A DNA stretch of 45,425 nucleotides, taken from the NCBI GenBank assembly GCA_903898185.1, contig CAIUEN010000121.1, positions 1-45,425 on the forward strand. The letters run 5' to 3'. Below, piece by piece: positions 3,866 through 24,732 of the stretch (position 1 is the stretch's first letter; every line of letters starts with the position of its first letter). Origin of the DNA: an uncultured Verrucomicrobiales bacterium (GTDB lineage Bacteria > Verrucomicrobiota > Verrucomicrobiia > Limisphaerales > Palsa-1400). The notes under the pieces were generated by a model, which saw only the letters and a program-made list of their open reading frames with translations, was not told the origin of the DNA and did no database searches. The translations under genes and the position numbers were made by a program.

Positions 3866-5003
3866 TTCCAAGATGAACTTTTCTGGATTTTTTCGCCGTC
3901 TGGTTGCGCTGTGCCGCAAGGAGACACGTCAGATTCTGCGCGATCCCAGCAGCAACCTGATCGCGTTTGTCCTGCCGGTGGCATTGCTTTTTATTTACAG
4001 CTATGGAATCAACCTGGACTCGACCTCAGTCAGCATCGGCCTGGTTCTCGAAGATTCCAGCCGTGAGGCGCGACAGTTTGCGGACAGCTTCATCGGCTCG
4101 CCTTATATGAAGGTGGTGACCTCGCTCAATCGCGCCGAAATGGAGCAGGCGATCATGGAGACGACCGTGCGAGGGTTCGTCGTGATACCAGAGGATTTTG
4201 CCCGGCGGCTCCAGCGTCCCACCGACACCGCGCCTCTGCTGGTGGTGACCGACGGCACCGAGCCCAACCTGGCGAGTTTTGTGGAGAATTATACTCGCGG
4301 AGCGTGGCAGAACTGGCTGCAACATCGCGCGGATGAACATGGACGGAAATTCACCACCGCCATTTCACTGGAGCCCCGCTATTGGTTTAATCCCTCGGCC
4401 GAAAGCCGCAATTTCATCATTCCGGGAGCAATCACTGTGATTATGACTGTGATTGGGGCGCTGTTGACGTCGCTGGTCATCGCGAGAGAGTGGGAGCGCG
4501 GCACCATGGAGGCGCTTCTGGCCACACCGGTTACACGGGCGGAGTTGTTGCTCAGCAAGATCATCCCGTATTATGCGCTGGGGATTGTGTCGCTGTTGAT
4601 CTGCGTGGCGGTGGCAGTGTTTGCGCTGCATGTGCCGTTTCGCGGATCGCTCTGGGTATTGCTGATGGTGTCGAGCCTGTTCCTGTTCAGCGCTCTTGGC
4701 TTCGGACTGCTGCTCTCGACCATGACTCGCAACCAGTTCAATGCCGCGCAAGGAGCGCTCAACGGCGCGTTCCTGCCCGCGCTGATTCTTTCGGGCTTTA
4801 TTTACGAGATTCGCAGCATGCCGTTGATCATCCAGGCAGTGACCTACCTGATCCCGGCGCGATACTTTGTCAATGCAATGCATACCCTCTTCATGGCGGG
4901 CAACATCTGGTCGGTGCTGCTGCGTAACATGTTCTTCCTGGCAATTGCATCGGTCTTCTTCCTTGGATTGACCGCATTGAAAACACGACGGAGGCTGGAA
5001 TAG
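3858..5003 (+). CDS. ABC-2 type permease (YbhS-like)
   Basis: The inner-membrane protein has an N-terminal membrane helix (about residues 30-50) after a basic stretch (CRKETRQILRDP), a large extracytoplasmic domain (about 55-190) and five to six C-terminal helices from about residue 195, the ABC2_membrane_3 architecture. The start at 3858 overlaps the ATPase stop and has GGAACGAG upstream; ATG 3873 is an alternative. It should form a heterodimer with the next permease and receive ATP-driven conformational change from the double ATPase. Substrate not predictable from sequence. Confidence 0.9.
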   Translation: MDDSKMNFSGFFRRLVALCRKETRQILRDPSSNLIAFVLPVALLFIYSYGINLDSTSVSIGLVLEDSSREARQFADSFIGSPYMKVVTSLNRAEMEQAIMETTVRGFVVIPEDFARRLQRPTDTAPLLVVTDGTEPNLASFVENYTRGAWQNWLQHRADEHGRKFTTAISLEPRYWFNPSAESRNFIIPGAITVIMTVIGALLTSLVIAREWERGTMEALLATPVTRAELLLSKIIPYYALGIVSLLICVAVAVFALHVPFRGSLWVLLMVSSLFLFSALGFGLLLSTMTRNQFNAAQGALNGAFLPALILSGFIYEIRSMPLIIQAVTYLIPARYFVNAMHTLFMAGNIWSVLLRNMFFLAIASVFFLGLTALKTRRRLE

Positions 5004-5006
5004 ACG

Positions 5007-6113
5007 ATGTATTACCGAATCAAGACATTGGTTATCAAGGAATTGCAAACGCTGCTACGCGATCCACAAGGACGCCGCCTGCTGATCATCCCCGTGTTTT
5101 TGCAACTGGCGCTATTCCCGCTGGCTTCGACGCTGGAAGTCACAAACAACACGCTGGCTGTTCTGAACGAGGACGGCGGTTCAGCGTCGTTCGAACTCAT
5201 CCAAAGATTCTCGCATGCCAAAGCGTTCAAGGAGACGCTCACGTTGCAGAGCGAGGATGAATTGCGCCAGACGATTGATCAACAAAAAGCGCTGGTGGTG
5301 TTGCGGTTCCCGCCTGATTTCTCACGCAGCGTCGCTGCCGGGCGACCTGTGATGATTCAGGCAATCATGGACGGGCGGCGCTCGAACGGAGGTCAGATCG
5401 CATTTGGTTACCTGCAACAAATCCTTCAAACCTACCTGGACGAACGCGACGTGGCCACTTCGCGCATTCCCATTTCAAAAGTTGTCGTTCGGCACTGGTT
5501 CAATCCGAACTTGGAATATACATGGTTCGTCGTTCCAAGCCTGGTGGCGATCATCACAACCATCAGCACATTGATTGTCACCTCGCTGTCAGTCGCGCGC
5601 GAGCGTGAGCACGGAACGCTGGACCAACTGCTGGTCTCGCCGTTGACGCCGGGGATGATCATGATCGGCAAGGCGGTGCCGGCCCTGCTCGTGGCCATGT
5701 TCCAAGGGACGATCATTCTGCTGGGCGGCATCTTCATTTACCAGGTTCCATTCCAAGGCTCGTTCCTGCTGCTTTACGCCAGCATGATCTGCTACATCCT
5801 GGCGCTGGTCGGGTTTGGACTCCTGATCTCCTCCATCTGCGCAACCCAGCAACAGGCGTTCCTGGGCGTTTTCAGCTTCGTGATGCCGGCAATCTTGCTC
5901 TCGGGATATGTGTCGCCGATTGACAACATGCCAGTGTGGCTTCAGCACCTGACCTGGGCCAACCCGTTGCGGCATTTCATCCTGATTGTCAAAAGCATTT
6001 TCCTCAAGAACGCTCCTGCCGCAGTCGTCCTGCAAAGCGTCTGGCCGCTCCTGTTGATCGCAGTTGCAACCTCCACCACCGCCAACCTTTTCTTCCGCAA
6101 ACATGTGGTGTGA
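5007..6113 (+). CDS. ABC-2 type permease (YbhR-like)
   Basis: The 368-residue second permease has the same plan as its neighbour: KELQTLLRDPQGRR, then a membrane helix (about residues 26-45), an extracytoplasmic domain, and a C-terminal helical block that includes VAREREHGTLDQLLVSPL, a coupling-helix-like segment typical of ABC-2 permeases. It begins 3 bp after the previous stop, with GGAGG about 12 nt ahead of the ATG. It closes the exporter operon and converges on glnS with only 12 bp between stop codons, so there is little room for a conventional terminator. Confidence 0.9.
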   Translation: MYYRIKTLVIKELQTLLRDPQGRRLLIIPVFLQLALFPLASTLEVTNNTLAVLNEDGGSASFELIQRFSHAKAFKETLTLQSEDELRQTIDQQKALVVLRFPPDFSRSVAAGRPVMIQAIMDGRRSNGGQIAFGYLQQILQTYLDERDVATSRIPISKVVVRHWFNPNLEYTWFVVPSLVAIITTISTLIVTSLSVAREREHGTLDQLLVSPLTPGMIMIGKAVPALLVAMFQGTIILLGGIFIYQVPFQGSFLLLYASMICYILALVGFGLLISSICATQQQAFLGVFSFVMPAILLSGYVSPIDNMPVWLQHLTWANPLRHFILIVKSIFLKNAPAAVVLQSVWPLLLIAVATSTTANLFFRKHVV

Positions 6114-12134: not shown

Positions 12135-12186
12135 GCATCCTTGCCTGTGCTCCTCTCTCCGTCGAGCGTCAGCGAGACGCTGATTT
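12114..12186. repeat. Family A element, copy 2, spanning two stop codons
   Basis: Inverted relative to copy 1, it contains the AGGCATCCTTGCCT hairpin and GCGTC-AGCGA-GACGC. It encodes the last residues and stop (12132-12134) of rpe on the plus strand and the last residues (KSASR) and stop (12169-12171) of ccsA on the minus strand. Confidence 0.85.
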
Positions 12187-14058
12187 GAAGCTTGCCCAAA
12201 AGCGCTCGGACATTAGCGCCAAAACAATGATGACAACCTGGCTTGCGACAAAGGCCACAAGCCACGGGAAGGCCGCGTCCATGAAACCGTACGAGTGCAG
12301 GCCGACCCCAAGCATGTTGACACCAAACCAGGAAAAACTGGTGACGATGTTGCCGCCCACCGCCATTGCCATCAGGCCGCGATCTTTGATCATGCCGCCC
12401 CAGCGCAGGTGCAGGATGATCGCATTCCAAAGCACGATCAGGAGAGCTCCGTTCTCTTTCGGGTCCCAGCCCCAGAAACGGCCCCAAGATTGATCAGCCC
12501 AGATGCCGCCCAAAACGGTTCCGACGAAACTGAAGATCGTCGAGAAACAGACAATCCCATAAACCATGCGAGTCAGGATATTGCCCAGATCCTGCGATTG
12601 AGCCGCGCCATCCAAAACCGGCTGGGACATGCGGGAAGTGAAAAAGCCGGCGACGACGTAAATGACCGCCAGCAACCCCGCAAGGAACATTGAGGAATAG
12701 CCGATGGTGATCGTCACAACATGCGTCGCAAGCCAGAGATTGGTGTCTAGCACAGCTCTCAGCATTTCCATGGTATCGCCGCTCAGTGAGAGATGGTGGG
12801 CGATGATCAGAGTGATGAACCCGATCAGAGACGACGCCACCAATCCGATGGCACCTTTGAACAGACGCTCAAGGATCAATCCCAGCAGCACTGCGCCCCA
12901 GCCGATGAAAATGGCGGATGAGTAAAGGTTGGTCACCGGAGGACGACCTTCCAGCCACATTCGGAAACCGAGGCCCAGCGTATGAATGACGAAACCCAGG
13001 ACCAGCAACATCACGCCCGTTTTGCGAACGCTCTCGGACATGTTGATCCAGAAAATGCAGCCCAAAATCAGCGCGGCCACATAAACCACCATGGCTTTGT
13101 AAAACGGCTCAAGCTGGTTGAAGAGAAATTCGTGCCGACTTTTCTGAACAGAGGCGTCAAGGTTGTTGGCTTGGAGCCACGATTCGTAGCCCGCCACCGC
13201 CGCTCTAAAGTCCTGAGGCCGGTTCTTGGCATAGCTCGATGCGATTGCGGCTAGAAAAGGGATGGCGGGATGAATTTCCTCCGTGCGGGCTGATTCGATG
13301 AGGCTTGCGCCGATATTGCGCCAGTTGCCCGGCGCATCGCCTGCTTTGGGCGGAACCGCCAGCGGATAGGCCACGCTGGCCATATCCTGAAATTCGTGAA
13401 ACAGCGGCGAGAGTCGATCCATCGCGCTCTTGTCAAATTCTTCTTTGACATCCTGCTTTCTAACCGCCGTCATGGCCGGTCCCAGCGCCGCCTTGTAAGC
13501 GGCGATGTCAGCCGGAAAATCGACGCAGCCCTCGGGTTGAAGGCTGTTCTTGATCTGCCGGTAAAGCATCAGGCTGCTGTAAAGATGCATCAAATCCTTT
13601 TGATATGCCGTGCGGTTCTTGGCGGCATCATCCCTGCTTTCCTCGGATTTTGCCAAGGTTTGAATCTGCGACTGAAGCTGCGGCAATTGATTGGTGAAAT
13701 CGTTGTAGGCATAGTAGTTGAGACCGGGCTTATCAGCGCCCAACAAGCCCTCCAGTTCGGGAGCTTGGACACGGAAGACTTTGCGTTGATCCGCCAGTTC
13801 GGGCTTGGTCATCGCTTCGAGCATCCACTCGGTGGCAGAGAGAGTGTTGCCGACAGCGCGAACGGTCGATTTGCCGCGCATGCTCAGCAGCGCATTGCGG
13901 GCGACGGTGTCCATCGGCTGGATGCGGCCATTGAGAAGAACGGGCAGTCGCCCGAAAAGGGTGAGGTCAAACTTGTTCTTTGGCTCGGGCGCGCGCGCGC
14001 CAGAGAGGAACCAGAGGGCGAACACGACAAGGCATGTCCAAGGCAGCCACTTTTTCAT
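12169..14058 (-). CDS. ccsA: CcsA-type cytochrome c biogenesis protein
   Basis: This 629-residue membrane protein has one N-terminal helix (about residues 5-22), a large soluble region (about 25-325) and a C-terminal CcsA-like polytopic domain with the haem-handling WWD-type motif WGRFWGWDPKENG near residue 525 and conserved membrane histidines (VIHTLGLG, ATHVVTI). With ResB it makes the System II haem export and cytochrome c ligation machine. I chose ATG 14058 because it overlaps the resB stop as ATGA and starts a membrane helix; the longer frame to 14208 lies inside resB. The long N-terminal soluble region is unlike the short classical CcsA. Its last residues come from a family A repeat. 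Confidence 0.9.
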   Translation of the reverse strand: MKKWLPWTCLVVFALWFLSGARAPEPKNKFDLTLFGRLPVLLNGRIQPMDTVARNALLSMRGKSTVRAVGNTLSATEWMLEAMTKPELADQRKVFRVQAPELEGLLGADKPGLNYYAYNDFTNQLPQLQSQIQTLAKSEESRDDAAKNRTAYQKDLMHLYSSLMLYRQIKNSLQPEGCVDFPADIAAYKAALGPAMTAVRKQDVKEEFDKSAMDRLSPLFHEFQDMASVAYPLAVPPKAGDAPGNWRNIGASLIESARTEEIHPAIPFLAAIASSYAKNRPQDFRAAVAGYESWLQANNLDASVQKSRHEFLFNQLEPFYKAMVVYVAALILGCIFWINMSESVRKTGVMLLVLGFVIHTLGLGFRMWLEGRPPVTNLYSSAIFIGWGAVLLGLILERLFKGAIGLVASSLIGFITLIIAHHLSLSGDTMEMLRAVLDTNLWLATHVVTITIGYSSMFLAGLLAVIYVVAGFFTSRMSQPVLDGAAQSQDLGNILTRMVYGIVCFSTIFSFVGTVLGGIWADQSWGRFWGWDPKENGALLIVLWNAIILHLRWGGMIKDRGLMAMAVGGNIVTSFSWFGVNMLGVGLHSYGFMDAAFPWLVAFVASQVVIIVLALMSERFWASFKSASR

Positions 14059-15332
14059 AAGCGTTTTTCCTTTTGATCGAAGTTGGAAGCGGGACGAGCC
14101 AGTCTGGCATCGGCAACCGGAACGGCGGCGACGGCGGAGTTTTTCCGGGCAAAGGTAAAAAGATGCATCATGAATTGGATCAGCAGTCCGGTCGTGATCA
14201 GAATGCAAGCCAGGTAGGGCGTAGCGGAGGCTGGGTTGCGCACAACCTGAAGTATCGAGACTCTGTCTCCGGGCTCGAAGCTGCTTTGGTAGTAGGTATC
14301 GCCGCGATAGCGCAGCGGGTTGTTCATGTAAATCAAAACGTCGCGGCTTTCCCCCATCGTGGGATCCTCCAGATGAACCCGGCTCGAGAAGTTTTTCGGA
14401 ATATCGGTGCCCGGGTAGAGATCGTGGCGGAACTCGATGAGCTTCAGCGTATAAGGTTTGTAGTAACGGGTCGGCCGCATCTCAATCCGGTAGTTGTGAC
14501 TGTTGCAAGCAAACGCTTGCGGAGTCGCCAGAATCGAGGCGTCACTGCCAAGCCACTCCGTCAATCGGCCCAGGGACGACATTTTAGTCAACCAGGGAGA
14601 AACGACCCAATCGCCGATTGAACCCTTGTCGCCGACGATTTCAATCAGCGCGGCGGGGCTGTTTTCGCTCTCCATTGCTGCCGTTACTGCAGTTGGGGCG
14701 AATTGGATCTGCTGGCCGATGCCCTGGCTGGACTTGAGAGCTCCGGGCTGGGCGCCGCCCCCACGGGTGGGCAGGGCGTTGGGCAGATAGCCTTTGACAC
14801 GTAGCGCAAACGGCAACTGCGGATGGCGGATTTCTTTGGAGTTGGCCAGATTGTCGGCAGGAATCGAGACTACATCGTCGCGGTCGGGATTGGTGGTGTC
14901 AATTACCACCAATTCCAGCTTGCGACTGTCTTCGGAATAGGTTTTGGTTTCGCCAACCTCGACACGCATCAGGCTCTCCACTTGGCATGCCTCGGTCAGG
15001 AACTGGCCCGAGAGCAGGATGATCAATCCAAGATGCGCCAGCCAGATACCGAGTTTCTTCCGAGAAAACTGAAACCGGGTGATGTGACTGGCAACGAGGT
15101 TGATCAGCAATACGCCGCCGATGAGCCAGCCGCCAGGGAAGATGGGAATTCCCATTTTGCTCCCTGGCAGGTCCCATAGGACAAGCCAGCTTCGGAAGTA
15201 GCGAGCCTGCACCTCGTAGAGTCCCAAGTGGACTTGGGCAATCGTGCCGCCAAAGACCAGCACCAAGGCCAGCGCCAGGCACACCACGGTTAAGCGCAAC
15301 GAGGCAAGCGATTTGAAAATCTTAGAGAGCAT
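14055..15332 (-). CDS. resB: ResB-like cytochrome c biogenesis protein
   Basis: ResB/Ccs1 partners CcsA to deliver haem and attach it to CXXCH apocytochromes outside the inner membrane. The 425-residue protein begins LASLRLTVVCLALALVLVFGG (first helix), has two further helices within about residues 65-115, a large periplasmic domain and a final helix near 380-400, the family plan. It overlaps ccsA by 4 bases and begins 1 base after the stop of the upstream duplicated-domain gene, so the three proteins are probably translated in a coupled way. No apocytochrome gene is present in the window. Confidence 0.9.
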   Translation of the reverse strand: MLSKIFKSLASLRLTVVCLALALVLVFGGTIAQVHLGLYEVQARYFRSWLVLWDLPGSKMGIPIFPGGWLIGGVLLINLVASHITRFQFSRKKLGIWLAHLGLIILLSGQFLTEACQVESLMRVEVGETKTYSEDSRKLELVVIDTTNPDRDDVVSIPADNLANSKEIRHPQLPFALRVKGYLPNALPTRGGGAQPGALKSSQGIGQQIQFAPTAVTAAMESENSPAALIEIVGDKGSIGDWVVSPWLTKMSSLGRLTEWLGSDASILATPQAFACNSHNYRIEMRPTRYYKPYTLKLIEFRHDLYPGTDIPKNFSSRVHLEDPTMGESRDVLIYMNNPLRYRGDTYYQSSFEPGDRVSILQVVRNPASATPYLACILITTGLLIQFMMHLFTFARKNSAVAAVPVADARLARPASNFDQKEKRL

Positions 15333-15333
15333 G

Positions 15334-16644
15334 TTATTGGAAACGGGCAGTCTGGGCGAGCTTCAGGAGGTTCGAAATTTCGCGTTCGACCTCGGAACTG
15401 TCGCCCAACAGTTTGTAGAACCAGGTTGCGTCGCTGCGCGGCGCCATGACAGCCACCAAGCGGGTTGGACGGCCTGAAGCGTCCTTGCCGATCATATCCA
15501 CCAAAGTGCCTTTTCCTCCTGCGACATCCACCGTTTTGGTCATGGAAGGTAATTCAGCTTCGGTGATTGCTTTGAGACCGATTTGCGCGCGCCATCGGTT
15601 GACGTTGGCCAACGCTCCACCCACTTGTCCTGGAAAACTGGTGATCGTGATGGTGGCTTTGCCGGCCTTTTCATCGCTCACCGTGAAGCTCTTGACGACC
15701 ATCTTGGAGGCAGACTGTTCTTTCCAATGAGGCGGTATTTGCCAAGTGGCTGCCGTTGAATCGTGAATCGTTGAATCGTGAATCGTTGAATCGTGAATCG
15801 TTGAATCGTTGAATCGTGAATCGTTGAATCGTGAATCGTTGAATCGTGAATCGTTGAAGCGTGAATCGTTGAAGCGTGAATCGTTCGGTTGTGCGCCATT
15901 GGGTGCGGCTGCCGCAGCAGTGGCTGGATGACTGGCTGGCATTCCTGACATTGCCTCGCCCATAGGTGGATGCCCTGCCGGTAAAACCGTTGCGTCCATG
16001 CCTGGCATTGCGCCATGCGGATTGGCCACTGCGGAATCGCCAATGCTTTCCGCCGCCGCCATCGACGGAGCGCCTTGGAATTTGACCGACTTTAAGAACT
16101 CGTTCATCGCGGGCTTGGCCGCCGCAACAACTGTCTTATCGCCGCGCAACTTGAAGAAATAGGAAGTTTCGTCCTTAAGCTCCCAGCCGACCAGTGTGGA
16201 CTGCTGCGCTCCCACAAATTCGTAGAGCTTGCCCTTTTCAGAACCGATGGCCACCAACTCCGACACGACATCCTTCTGCTCAATCGGCTCAAGCCCCACC
16301 TCGCCGCGCCAGCGATTGACGTTCATGAGTTCACCGCCGACATCACCGGGAAAGGCCATCACAGCCAACTCCGCCTTGGTGTCGTTCGTTCCGAGAACGA
16401 CAAACTGGCCCAAACGCATGCGCGAAGCCGGTTTTTCATCCCATCCCGTGGGCACCGTCCATGTCAACGGTCTTGATAAGGCGGCTTGCGGCTGAGCCGA
16501 GCCGAGTGACAGGAGGCTGGGAACAGGTTCTTTGGGAACGCTGTACGTCTGCACTCCGTCTTTGCCCCAGGCAACGACGGGCAGTGCGATTGCAATGAGG
16601 ATACGCGAATAAAATCCATTAGTTGCTGGCATAAGCTGCCGCAA
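15334..16644 (-). CDS. Exported protein with duplicated domain and Met/His-rich, repeat-encoded linker
   Basis: I do not recognise a named family. After a likely signal peptide (about residues 8-27; ATG at residue 5 is an alternative start) come two homologous domains of about 130 residues: 61-188 and 300-430. Both share W-x-(V/I)-P-x-x-W at the start, a SFPGQVGG / AFPGDVGG turn, NVNRWR and an F-(F/Y)-KL-x-GD strand near the end. The linker has a Met/His-rich part (205-240: GAMPGMDATVLPAGHPPMGE and MSGMPASHP) that could bind copper or haem, then a low-complexity tract (254-297) of NDSRF and HDSTI pentapeptides encoded by the GAATCGT(T) DNA repeat. It heads the resB-ccsA operon, so a periplasmic role in cytochrome or metal handling is inferred. 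Confidence 0.75.
   Translation of the reverse strand: MRQLMPATNGFYSRILIAIALPVVAWGKDGVQTYSVPKEPVPSLLSLGSAQPQAALSRPLTWTVPTGWDEKPASRMRLGQFVVLGTNDTKAELAVMAFPGDVGGELMNVNRWRGEVGLEPIEQKDVVSELVAIGSEKGKLYEFVGAQQSTLVGWELKDETSYFFKLRGDKTVVAAAKPAMNEFLKSVKFQGAPSMAAAESIGDSAVANPHGAMPGMDATVLPAGHPPMGEAMSGMPASHPATAAAAAPNGAQPNDSRFNDSRFNDSRFNDSRFNDSRFNDSTIHDSTIHDSTIHDSTAATWQIPPHWKEQSASKMVVKSFTVSDEKAGKATITITSFPGQVGGALANVNRWRAQIGLKAITEAELPSMTKTVDVAGGKGTLVDMIGKDASGRPTRLVAVMAPRSDATWFYKLLGDSSEVEREISNLLKLAQTARFQ
15754..15885. repeat. GAATCGT(T) tandem array, coding copy
   Basis: About 17 units of GTGAATC (7 bp) and GTTGAATC (8 bp), mostly alternating so that each pair makes 15 bp. On the minus strand this encodes in-frame pentapeptides NDSRF and HDSTI. 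One place has two 8-mers in a row, which shifts the phase and changes the peptide from one form to the other without a stop. Confidence 0.95.
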
Positions 16645-18270: not shown

Positions 18271-19047
18271 TCAACTGCTCTTCCAGCCCTGCCGCCGCTC
18301 GTTATAGGCGGGTTGCGAGTATTTCGTTCGTTTCAATTCTTCAGCCAGCGCGATGAGGCTCTCTGGGGGGTGGAGCGGCGACCAACAAACTCCCCACTGC
18401 TCACGCGCAATGCGCAGCATTGATTCCTGCCATGCAGGTCGCGCCAGATCCAGTGGCGGCGGTTGCACGGACCCTTGGATGAGCAAGCCTTGATGAGTGC
18501 GCCTTTGGGCCGCGCCCGCAATTTTGCGTCCCTTCCACATTACGTCGGATTTCTCAGCGCCAATGAAACATTGTCCGGGCGCTTCCTTAACCGCGCACTG
18601 AGCTAGAGACGTCGTCATGCCCAATCCGGCGAACGAATCGCGAATCCATTGGTGAATGCGCTCGTAGCTTTCGGCAGCCTTAAGGCTGTACCAAGCGTGA
18701 TTGGGTGGGAAAATGGCGCTGTAGGTCCAGTCTGCGTTGTGCGGAACCAGGCCACCGCCGGTCGGTCGGCGCACTAAAGGACGCAACGGGGTAATAAGCT
18801 CTATGTCCGCATGGCATTGCGAATAGCCGAAACTGGCCGCCGGTTGCGTCCAGCCATAGAAACGTAATATCGGGTGTCCGAATTGGGGCGCGAGATCCAT
18901 CAGCGCCTGGTCCAGCGCCATATTATAATCGCAGGCGCAGGCGCCAGTGTCGAGCCAGTGCCAAGTGTCGTGAATCGTTGAATCGTTGAATCGTTGAATC
19001 GTTGAATCGTTGAATCGTTGAATCGTTGAATCGTTGAATCGAATCAT
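18271..19047 (-). CDS. Lipoate--protein ligase A family protein
   Basis: From about residue 28 the protein has the BPL_LplA_LipB fold: HWLDTGACACDYNMALDQAL, RFYGWTQPAASFGYSQ, RRPTGGGLVPHNADWTYS and a lysine-bearing KIAGAAQRRTHQGLLIQGS. Members attach lipoate or octanoate to lipoyl domains of 2-oxoacid dehydrogenases or the glycine cleavage H protein; the exact reaction (LplA, LipM or LipL-like) cannot be told. Family homologues begin near the WHWLDTG segment, but the only usable ATG before it lies inside a GAATCGTT tandem array, giving about 27 extra residues of RFNDSTIQ repeats. Either the array is translated or a non-ATG start is used; no such start with a ribosome binding site is visible. 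Confidence 0.85.
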   Translation of the reverse strand: MIRFNDSTIQRFNDSTIQRFNDSTIHDTWHWLDTGACACDYNMALDQALMDLAPQFGHPILRFYGWTQPAASFGYSQCHADIELITPLRPLVRRPTGGGLVPHNADWTYSAIFPPNHAWYSLKAAESYERIHQWIRDSFAGLGMTTSLAQCAVKEAPGQCFIGAEKSDVMWKGRKIAGAAQRRTHQGLLIQGSVQPPPLDLARPAWQESMLRIAREQWGVCWSPLHPPESLIALAEELKRTKYSQPAYNERRQGWKSS

Positions 19048-19066
19048 CGAATCATCGAATCATCGA
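18970..19066. repeat. GAATCGTT tandem array at the lipoate ligase start
   Basis: About eight tandem 8-bp GTTGAATC units followed by three variant units GAATCATC. In the minus-strand frame three units (24 bp) give the octapeptide RFNDSTIQ, which forms the N-terminus of the ligase ORF. It also lies just ahead of the divergent rhomboid gene. Confidence 0.95.
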
Positions 19067-19141
19067 GTCAGGCGCAATGCAATCTTTGGCAATGTTTTTT
19101 GCTGTCTTTCCAAGCGCAATCGGCGATGTTCTCCGCTTGTT

Positions 19142-22204: not shown

Positions 22205-23518
22205 ATGAATCGGCGTTTTGTCTATAGTCTTTTGATTGTTCTACTTGGTATAAATCTCTTTTTTGGAGCCCAGATTTATTTCTATTCGGCATCCGCGTCG
22301 CCAAAGGATGATCCTTACGAGAACTACAAATTGCTTGCGGATGTGCTGGAAAAAGTGCGACAGGAATATGTCGATGGGAGCAAGCTCACCTACCAGGAAT
22401 TAATTCACGGCGCGCTCAAGGGCATGCTCAATACGCTCGACCCTCACAGCGAATTCATGGATCCGTCCAAATTTGAAGAACTTAAGAATGACACGCAGGG
22501 TGAGTTTGGAGGGCTGGGAATCGTCGTCCAGATGAACAAGGACAAATATCTGACGGTCGTTTCCCCCATGGAAGACACCCCAGGCTACAAAGCCGGCATC
22601 CTGCCGATGGACCGGATTCTCAAGATTGACGGGCGCGGCACAGAAAAGTATTCCCTTGAAGAAGCGGTCAAGCACCTGCGAGGCGAGCCAGGCACGGAAG
22701 TCACTATTACCATCCAACGGCCATCAACAGGCCAGATCAAGGATTACAAGCTGACGCGAGCCGCCATCAAGGTTGATACTGCCAAAGACATCAACAGCAA
22801 ACGCGAGTTTCCGCTTGGCGAGAGCGGAATCGGTTATGTTCGCCTGACGCAGTTTGGCGAAAAAACGGACTCCGAATTAAGCCAAGCGCTGAGAAAGCTA
22901 CAAGAACAGGGAATGAAAGCACTGATTCTGGACCTGCGCGGCAATCCGGGCGGCTTGCTCGAACAGGCGGGACTGGTCTGCGAGCATTTTGTGAATCGCG
23001 GACAGTTGATTGTTTCGACCGAAGGCCGGAACCCGAATCAAATGTCTCAATATCGATCCAGCGGCAAGATCAAGAAACTGGACATTCCGCTGGTGGTGCT
23101 GGTGAACACCGGCAGCGCCAGCGCTTCAGAAATTGTCGCGGGCTGTTTGCAGGATCTCCAATGGCAGACGCATGCCATCATTGTCGGAGAACAGACCTTT
23201 GGCAAAGGTTCGGTACAAAGCATCCTGCCACTGCCAGACGGCTCGGCGTTGCGTTTGACCACTGCCAAATACTACACTCCAAGCCACAAGGTGATTCATG
23301 AAAAAGGAATTATTCCAGATATCACCGTAACAATGAGCGAGTCTGAAGAATACGACCTATTCCGCAAGCGAACTCCCGGCGTGATCGATACCTTGGATCC
23401 CAAAGAACGCGAGAAGGTCGAGTCCGCGCATGACGTCCAGTTGGAACGTGGCACCGATGTCCTCAAGGGCATTCTTCTCTATTCGCAGCGTGAATCGTTA
23501 AAGTCGTTGAATCGTTAA
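22205..23518 (+). CDS. C-terminal processing peptidase (S41, CtpA/Prc-like)
   Basis: The 437-residue exported protease has an N-terminal signal or anchor (about residues 5-23), a PDZ domain (about 95-175, starting GEFGGLGIVVQM) and an S41 core. The nucleophile lies in NTGSASASEIVAG (about residues 301-312) and the general base is Lys334 in TFGKGSVQS. It trims or degrades periplasmic proteins from the C-terminus. Its start codon directly follows a family A repeat, and its last residues (ESLKSLNR) and stop lie within the left arm of a GAATCGTT array, so the native C-terminus may have been altered. No Shine-Dalgarno sequence remains. Confidence 0.93.
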   Translation: MNRRFVYSLLIVLLGINLFFGAQIYFYSASASPKDDPYENYKLLADVLEKVRQEYVDGSKLTYQELIHGALKGMLNTLDPHSEFMDPSKFEELKNDTQGEFGGLGIVVQMNKDKYLTVVSPMEDTPGYKAGILPMDRILKIDGRGTEKYSLEEAVKHLRGEPGTEVTITIQRPSTGQIKDYKLTRAAIKVDTAKDINSKREFPLGESGIGYVRLTQFGEKTDSELSQALRKLQEQGMKALILDLRGNPGGLLEQAGLVCEHFVNRGQLIVSTEGRNPNQMSQYRSSGKIKKLDIPLVVLVNTGSASASEIVAGCLQDLQWQTHAIIVGEQTFGKGSVQSILPLPDGSALRLTTAKYYTPSHKVIHEKGIIPDITVTMSESEEYDLFRKRTPGVIDTLDPKEREKVESAHDVQLERGTDVLKGILLYSQRESLKSLNR

Positions 23519-23705
23519 AACGTTGAATCGGAAGAAGCGTCGGCTTCGATTCAGCGATTCACGATTCAGCGATTCACGATTCACGATTCACGATTCACGA
23601 TTCACGATTCACGATTCACGATTCACGATTCACGATTCACGATTCACGATTCACGATTCACGATTCACGATTCAACGATTCAACGATTCACGATTCAACG
23701 ATTCC
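23489..23705. repeat. GATTCAC tandem array between ctp and tsaD
   Basis: The left arm carries GTGAATC/GTTGAATC units (23489-23530) and the right arm, after a GAAG-aagcgtcgg-CTTC hairpin, more than 15 units in the opposite orientation, mostly uniform 7-bp GATTCAC and then 8-bp GATTCAAC. The whole can fold as a large hairpin. It covers the ctp stop codon and ends 4 bases before the tsaD ATG. Confidence 0.97.
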
Positions 23706-23709
23706 CGCC

Positions 23710-24732
23710 ATGATCCTGCTCGCCCTAGAAAGTTCCTGCGATGAAACCAGCGCGGCGGTCATTCGTGACTCGCGCGTGCTGGCCAACACCATCTCATCTC
23801 AGATCGCGTTGCACGCTGAGTATGGCGGAGTCGTTCCAGAGTTGGCCACGCGCGAGCATCTGCGCAACTTGGGGCCGGCCACACGATCCGCTCTGGAGGC
23901 AGCCGGGATTACGATATCGCAGGTGGATGCCGTCGCAGCGACGCGCGGACCCGGTCTGCCCAGCGCGCTGCTTGTGGGATTGAAGGCCGGACAAGCACTG
24001 GCCTACAGTATTCGCAAGCCATTTCTGGGCATCAACCATCACGAGGCCCACTTGTATTCGCCATGGATTTCCGGCGACCCTCCCGTAGGCGATTTCTCGG
24101 AATTTCAGCCGTCGGTCTCGCTGATCGTCAGTGGCGGGCACACCCTGCTGGTTCATGTCAAAAACGAACTTGATCACGAGGTGCTCGGCTCGACGGTTGA
24201 CGATGCCGCAGGAGAATGCTTTGACAAGGTCGGAAAACTCATCGGACTGCCCTACCCGGCGGGGCCGGAAATCGACCGCCTGTCCGCGCGCGGCAATCCC
24301 AGCGCCTACGATTTCCCGCGGCCCATGCTCCATGAGCCAAACGATGACTTCAGCTTCGCGGGTCTCAAGACATCGGTTCGCTATTTTTTGCAGAAACATC
24401 CGGCGCTCTTCGAAAGCGAGCAATGCCTGCGAGACGTGTGCGCCAGCGCGCAGGCGGCCATTGTCGAGGTGCTGGTCAAGAAAACGATTCGCGCCGCCAA
24501 CCGCTTGGGCGTCACCTGCGTCACCGGTTCAGGCGGCGTGATCTGCAACAGCGCGTTACGCCGCGATCTCCAGATTGCGTGCAACAAGGCCGGCATCAAA
24601 CTGCAACTGGCCGTCCGCAAATTTTCGACTGACAATGCCGCCATGATTGGAATTGTCGCTGAACGCAAGCTCCTGGCTGGCGCAGCACCCACTCCTCTGG
24701 ACGAAGACATTGATCCAGGCTGGTCGCTTTAG
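23710..24732 (+). CDS. tsaD: tRNA N6-adenosine threonylcarbamoyltransferase
   Basis: TsaD transfers threonylcarbamoyl from threonylcarbamoyl-AMP to A37 of ANN-decoding tRNAs, acting with TsaB and TsaE. The 340-residue ASKHA-fold protein has LALESSCDETSAAV at the N-terminus, the metal-binding H110-x3-H114 (NHHEAH), VSGGHT, and GGVICNSALR and FSTDNAAMIG near the C-terminus. Its ATG follows a GATTCAC array after only 4 bases, so the usual upstream initiation region is made of repeat. TsaB and TsaE are not in the window. Confidence 0.97.
   Translation: MILLALESSCDETSAAVIRDSRVLANTISSQIALHAEYGGVVPELATREHLRNLGPATRSALEAAGITISQVDAVAATRGPGLPSALLVGLKAGQALAYSIRKPFLGINHHEAHLYSPWISGDPPVGDFSEFQPSVSLIVSGGHTLLVHVKNELDHEVLGSTVDDAAGECFDKVGKLIGLPYPAGPEIDRLSARGNPSAYDFPRPMLHEPNDDFSFAGLKTSVRYFLQKHPALFESEQCLRDVCASAQAAIVEVLVKKTIRAANRLGVTCVTGSGGVICNSALRRDLQIACNKAGIKLQLAVRKFSTDNAAMIGIVAERKLLAGAAPTPLDEDIDPGWSL

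Follow-up and report, generated by a model that had tools for sequence, protein, structure and literature searches.

A GAATCGT tandem array in a verrucomicrobial gene, probably derived from an arm at the end of a small IVS-like S23 mobile element

Introduction

The intervening sequences (IVSs) of 23S rRNA in Coxiella, Leptospira and other bacteria carry an open reading frame (ORF) for a protein of the S23 family (PF05635), whose fold is a four-helix bundle, between inverted repeats whose pairing gives a long stem, and these stems are trimmed by RNase III. The Coxiella IVS is 428 nt long, and heptameric GACAGAT repeats precede its S23p ORF (PMC4990558). S23 genes in cas loci have been noted as having a possible CRISPR-associated function (PMC3936711), and Avd, an accessory protein of diversity-generating retroelements, is a reported structural relative of PF05635 (PMC10053308).

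Heptameric repeats are themselves already known. Their over-representation in bacterial genomes has been on record since 2007, polymerase slippage being the stated cause and no carrier being identified. The Xanthomonas GGGAATC repeats, with about 70 convergent pairs, and the Nostoc GGGGA(C/T)T repeats have 7-bp units and are mostly intergenic; the study describing them found the heptamers not to be generally associated with mobile elements and is silent on S23 (PMC4692102). TAACTGA, a single 7-bp unit present at many loci per genome and scattered over phyla (Beggiatoaceae, cyanobacteria, Bacteroidetes), occurs as direct repeats with one inverted case; a mobile element was suspected as the source of these repeats, and no link to S23 was made (PMC4679880). 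Both studies considered a carrier for the heptamers and found none (PMC4692102, PMC4679880), and a search of mainly open-access literature returned no paper that connects heptamer arrays with S23 genes.

In this work, we analyzed a GAATCGT/GAATCGTT tandem array lying inside a gene of an uncultured Verrucomicrobiales bacterium (assembly GCA_903898185.1, contig CAIUEN010000121.1, positions 1 to 45,425); the whole stretch of 45,425 nucleotides is hereafter called the window. The Xanthomonas repeat (GGGAATC)n is a rotated (GAATCGG)n and is therefore one base off GAATCGT; unlike the Xanthomonas and Nostoc heptamers, the units of the array studied here are mixed, of 7 and 8 bp.

Results

The array at 15754-15885 and its host gene

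TRF called a 15-bp-period array at 15754-15885 on the forward strand with a score of 201, and the window contained 25 two-unit matches as compared with 0.5 expected from shuffled sequence, which confirms that the array is real. Counted from 15758, it has 17 units spanning 128 bp in the order 7,8,7,8,7,8,8,7,8,7,8,7,8,7,8,7,8, and two of the 17 are of the variant GAAGCGT. The original prediction had described units that mostly alternate, each pair making 15 bp and one pentapeptide; the alternation holds at 15 of the 16 steps, the lone exception being an 8-8 step at which the pentapeptide switches mid-array from NDSRF to HDSTI, so that the encoded peptide is not constant. No inverted partner was found within 500 bp on either side (scores of 10 and 12, to be read against a background maximum of 14 and a positive control of 28), nor was any S23 gene found near the array.

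The host gene (15334-16644, reverse strand, 436 aa) encodes two copies of a domain of roughly 140 aa, and the linker between them contains the array in frame and is open throughout, its translation reading ...(NDSRF)x5 NDSTI (HDSTI)x2 HDST.... Homologues were present in 28 of the 30 genomes searched (own genome counted), and their interdomain linkers are short and unlike the NDSRF/HDSTI tract, which indicates that the array is a late addition at a permissive place in the gene. An ancient protein feature is thereby ruled out, and the counter-case that had been offered to the original prediction, namely homologues showing such a feature with unrelated codons, does not apply to linkers that are short and unrelated. 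We also rejected an assignment to the pentapeptide repeat proteins, as the Pfam models stayed below their cut-offs (23.5 bits vs 38, and 20.9 vs 27), the sub-threshold match falling on the translated array itself; no mention of the array peptides was found in the open-access literature. The host gene has two neighbours with matches to PF05140 and PF01578, one ResB-like (14055-15332) and the other of CcsA/CcmF type (12169-14208). At another locus (L194) one host-gene domain is fused to a ResB-like protein. This fusion and the adjacency to the ResB-like gene (14055-16644) suggest that the two-domain protein may play a role in cytochrome c biogenesis.

The other two arrays in the window

The second array (18971-19070, forward strand) consists of nine 8-bp TGAATCGT units and, after these, degenerate ATCGAATC units, and within its TRF span (18971-19041) the units are of 8 bp throughout. 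It lies at the 5' end of a lipoate-ligase ORF (18271-19047, reverse strand; Pfam PF21948), whose first residues, MIRFNDSTIQRFNDSTIQ, it encodes. The ORF apparently begins within the array (18971-19047), so that either the N-terminus is array-encoded or the true start lies elsewhere.

The third array, identified by TRF, direct inspection and translation, is an inverted pair (23491-23704, inverted score 28) composed of a short GAATCGT arm (23491-23530) and an expanded ACGATTC arm (23547-23704) of mostly 7-bp units. On one side lies a ctpA-like gene for a peptidase S41 (22205-23518), whose last residues and stop codon come from the first arm, and on the other tsaD (23710-24732), which starts 6 bp past the end of the second arm.

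Unit order and reading frame

On the ACGATTC[A] strand, which is the one read by the host gene, none of the 4096 possible orders of twelve units gives a stop in any frame. An open frame over the array therefore carries no information: the ORF does stay open, as had been predicted, but this would be so for any order of units. The opposite strand, in contrast, is open solely under strict 7/8 alternation. Arrays read on that strand, and strictly alternating, occur inside L145 and in the first arm of an array pair within mnmG. The notion of translational selection on unit order would apply to arrays such as these two and not to the host gene, although alternation in them is better understood as survival than as tuning.

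When unit order was compared inside and outside genes, as had been proposed, the strict 15-bp order also appeared outside them, between grpE-like and zinc-ribbon genes (L151, 5304-5355) and just downstream of ychF (L198, 5083-5149), both noncoding. The statement that arrays other than the one in the host gene are more uniform is thus correct within the window and does not extend to the genome. Arrays L149 and L157 have a 22-bp order (7-7-8), and block duplication explains the 15-bp and 22-bp orders alike. For the host-gene array, a total length that keeps the frame is sufficient on its own.

A dispersed GAATCGT family

Genome-wide there were 164 three-unit matches, and in the 26 stretches examined 39 arrays of at least three units were found, a lower bound for the genome, in which the GAATCGT unit occupies over two dozen loci. 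Convergent inverted partners within 700 bp accompanied 21 of these 39 arrays, 4 were cut by contig ends and 14 were single. The exact three-unit pattern gave no match in five other genomes of the family; of 388 genomes sampled across the phylum, 5 contained it, this genome being one of the 5, and among the matches listed it occurred in many other phyla. Taken together with the inverted pair inside mnmG, described below, these counts bear out the proposal that the array spreads as a genomic element. Five contigs of this genome (C23, C55, C145, C221 and C241) end within GAATCGT arrays, which points to an assembly broken by the arrays and to a true number and length that are probably underestimated.

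Inverted pairs enclosing no gene were found at L147, L151, L152, L153, L156, L158, L160 and L197; inverted termini, the lack of a gene and occurrence at many loci are features that these copies share with MITEs (non-autonomous inverted-repeat elements). No shared core was found in the spacers of the inverted pairs, and no S23 remnant was seen in the 440-bp spacer of L162. Like heptameric long simple sequence repeats (LSSRs), the arrays are tandem units of about 7 bp in excess of chance, here with 7- and 8-bp units mixed; the same unit recurring across this genome with no exact match in five others of the family, and 21 of 39 arrays being convergent, they do not fit local slippage at independent loci. 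At the outer borders of L143, L197, L199, L162 and L164, which are unrelated loci, the arrays start after GGGGCGTT or a near match. This sequence, noticed post hoc, is possibly an outer terminal motif.

The copy in mnmG/gidA, a conserved tRNA-modification gene, is an inverted GAATCGT array pair lying in frame (L153 1022-1165, contig C117). The conserved blocks of mnmG are 69 residues apart here vs 10 in Aquifex MnmG, which amounts to about 59 added in-frame residues. Both arms have a common irregular unit order and fold as one long irregular hairpin.

S23 genes and inverted arms

At locus L143 of the same genome, inverted GAATCGTT arms (4500-4561 and 5141-5171) surround an ORF (4682-5182) that matches PF05635 (E 1e-30), the S23 / 23S-rRNA-intervening-sequence protein family, for which the nearest solved structure is Xanthomonas protein XCC0516 (2gsc). 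Among the S23 loci examined in this genome only L143 has GAATCGT arms, three others having different units. In 112 loci fetched from other genomes by their arrays (793 kb) there were 10 S23 ORFs, 8 of them within 123 bp of an array.

S23 genes were then gathered regardless of arrays (29 loci of relatives, 30 loci of other phyla and 12 plasmid loci). In the relatives, the inverted score of the near flanks was 23.6, exceeding the values for flanks at 700 bp (12.4), for comparisons between loci (11.4) and for control genes (12.2), and 18 of the 29 loci exceeded the 99th percentile of between-locus scores. The 30 loci of other phyla scored 29.9 vs 12.4, with 12 above the 99th percentile; they come from about 20 genomes that were picked for carrying at least one GAATCGT array and are thus not a random draw of bacteria. 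Inverted arrays were clear at 8 of the 12 plasmid loci (Cyanobacteriota, Azospirillum, Gemmatirosa, Riemerella), weak at 3 and absent at 1. Self-similarity of S23 flanks at lag 7 was 0.59 vs 0.39 in the relatives and 0.67 vs 0.42 in the other phyla; this periodicity excess was clear at lags 7 and 14, weaker at 8 and at background otherwise, and was confined to the immediate surroundings of the S23 genes.

The array units at S23 genes usually differ between loci. Related S23 genes at unrelated sites tend toward like arms, a correlation that is weak overall (Spearman 0.117; 5 of 2000 permutations as high). At L062, in a second verrucomicrobial genome, the S23 protein is 66% identical to the one from this genome, and GAATCGTT arms are present at both loci. 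S23 copies inside one genome share merely 27-46% identity, so that recent in-genome transposition of complete elements was not seen; such divergence points to a slow or horizontal spread of complete elements. Two loci (L257 and L228) contain a second S23-like group of 214-248 aa with a weak PF05635 score, 88% identity between two family genomes and little or no heptamer structure; by these features it may be a different, resident gene.

Filled and empty sites

Three plasmid pairs of filled and empty sites, all between protein genes, show the extra DNA to be the S23 gene together with both arms, 0.42-0.51 kb in all. Calothrix brevissima has 507 bp that Nostoc carneum, Tolypothrix and Aulosira do not have; Picosynechococcus PCC 7003 has about 416 bp between cas10 and cmr3 relative to PCC 7002; and Nostoc edaphicum has about 480 bp between two ribonucleotide reductase genes relative to Calothrix NIES-4105, a length taken from matched spans because the aligner split the gap. 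The empty sites have no arrays and keep the gene order, and the three insertion sites showed no clear target-site duplication. Folded as RNA, the Calothrix element pairs its arms (z -5.8).

S23 genes also appear as bounded insertions in CRISPR operons at L236, L243 and L245 (cas10/cmr3 or cas6/cas4). Since PCC 7002 has cas10-cmr3 without S23, the gene is probably a passenger there.

Discussion

The explanation that we favor, with a probability of about 0.72, is that the window array belongs to a 7/8-bp repeat dispersed over the genome, whose origin is an arm at the end of a small S23 mobile element of IVS-like build. A complete element would measure about 0.42-0.51 kb and consist of a PF05635 gene with inverted arrays of 7-8-bp units on both sides, L143 representing the element with GAATCGTT arms and the other GAATCGT copies being those found without the gene. 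Such gene-less copies would be either inverted arms round a short spacer (hairpins, one of them in mnmG) or single arms, the latter enlarged by slippage and by block duplication of 7, 8, 15 or 22 bp, and the window array would be one of these single arms. Once transcribed, the two arms of an element are expected to form a long stem with each other, like those of 23S rRNA IVSs. We infer that the array-only copies, which look recent, derive from S23 elements and, the window array having neither a partner nor an S23 gene nearby, it is from the genome-wide family that we infer it to have once been part of such a copy. Its survival in the host gene would be owed to a permissive interdomain linker, a stop-free strand and a length that keeps the frame.

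Other readings deserve to be weighed against this one. In most bacterial genomes, heptamers are reported to outnumber the other long simple repeats, which was put down to slippage (Mrazek et al. 2007, as cited in PMC4679880), and the array could be an ordinary simple-sequence repeat of this kind, expanded by slippage from chance units, beside or into which S23 genes insert. The clearly variable unit number, the duplicated 15- and 22-bp blocks and the partnerless state of the window array would all suit this account; yet an insertion into a directional array would have units pointing the same way left and right of it, which the inverted arms of S23 genes do not, and arrays are absent at the three empty sites. 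Nor does it readily accommodate a unit found at more than two dozen loci here and unmatched in five genomes of the family, or mnmG arms that form a hairpin and have an identical irregular unit order, and we regard it as unlikely. More improbable still is that the inverted arrays act as terminators or as stems for RNA processing and are kept by selection at gene borders, their link to S23 being incidental. Many arrays are indeed intergenic with strong folds (L153 z -5.1, L239 z -5.8), and a regulatory role has been proposed for the TAACTGA repeats of Beggiatoaceae (PMC4679880); however, mnmG and the host-gene linker both contain copies, gene order is unchanged at the three related sites that have no insertion, and the association with a single protein family, seen across phyla, greatly exceeds background.

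The least probable of the readings, and one to which we give very little weight, is that selection for a 15-bp period encoding one pentapeptide sets the unit order of the host gene, as the original prediction had suggested. The near-perfect alternation of its array, and the fact that on the opposite strand alternation is the sole open order, could be taken that way. The strand that the host gene reads is nevertheless open in all frames for every order, noncoding arrays at L151 and L198 are just as strictly 15-bp, the NDSRF to HDSTI change breaks the peptide mid-array and the tract is missing from homologues; selection on array structure through translation was thus not upheld.

Beyond the descent of the window array from an S23 element, it is tempting to speculate, at odds that we would place somewhat short of even, that very small mobile elements of a single, widespread class occur throughout bacteria, with S23/IVP genes as their coding part and with 7-8-bp arrays, newly made or continually renewed, at their ends. 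Most known bacterial heptanucleotide repeats (STRRs, GGGAATC, TAACTGA, GAATCGT) might in that case represent the intact ends of such elements or their gene-less remains, and the S23 genes in CRISPR operons might be passengers instead of cas genes. Joining the repeats to S23 would provide a source for the former and an element for the latter, both testable in culturable cyanobacteria, and would explain where these so far unaccounted-for bacterial repeats come from. It would also serve as a warning that translated arrays (NDSRF/NDSTIQRF tracts) are element debris and not protein features.

Among the known heptamers, the TAACTGA repeats differ from the GAATCGT family in their unit. The cyanobacterial STRRs have units of like size and different composition; the original prediction had limited the resemblance to cyanobacterial heptanucleotide repeats to unit size, which is probably wrong, given that plasmid S23 genes of Nostoc, Calothrix, Anabaena, Pseudanabaena and Picosynechococcus are flanked by inverted 7-bp arrays and thus share the architecture described here. 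With the 23S rRNA IVSs, the elements share the protein family, the ORF between inverted repeats and a similar size. A PF05635 ORF is present at L143 and absent from the window array, and terminal inverted repeats or a stem are found at S23 loci and in the mnmG copy and not in the window-gene array. In contrast to the IVSs, the arrays and S23 loci examined adjoin or interrupt protein genes and do not lie in 23S rRNA genes, their arms are arrays of 7-8-bp units, and gene-less copies exist. Altogether, the S23 element with array arms is a new variant on the IVS.
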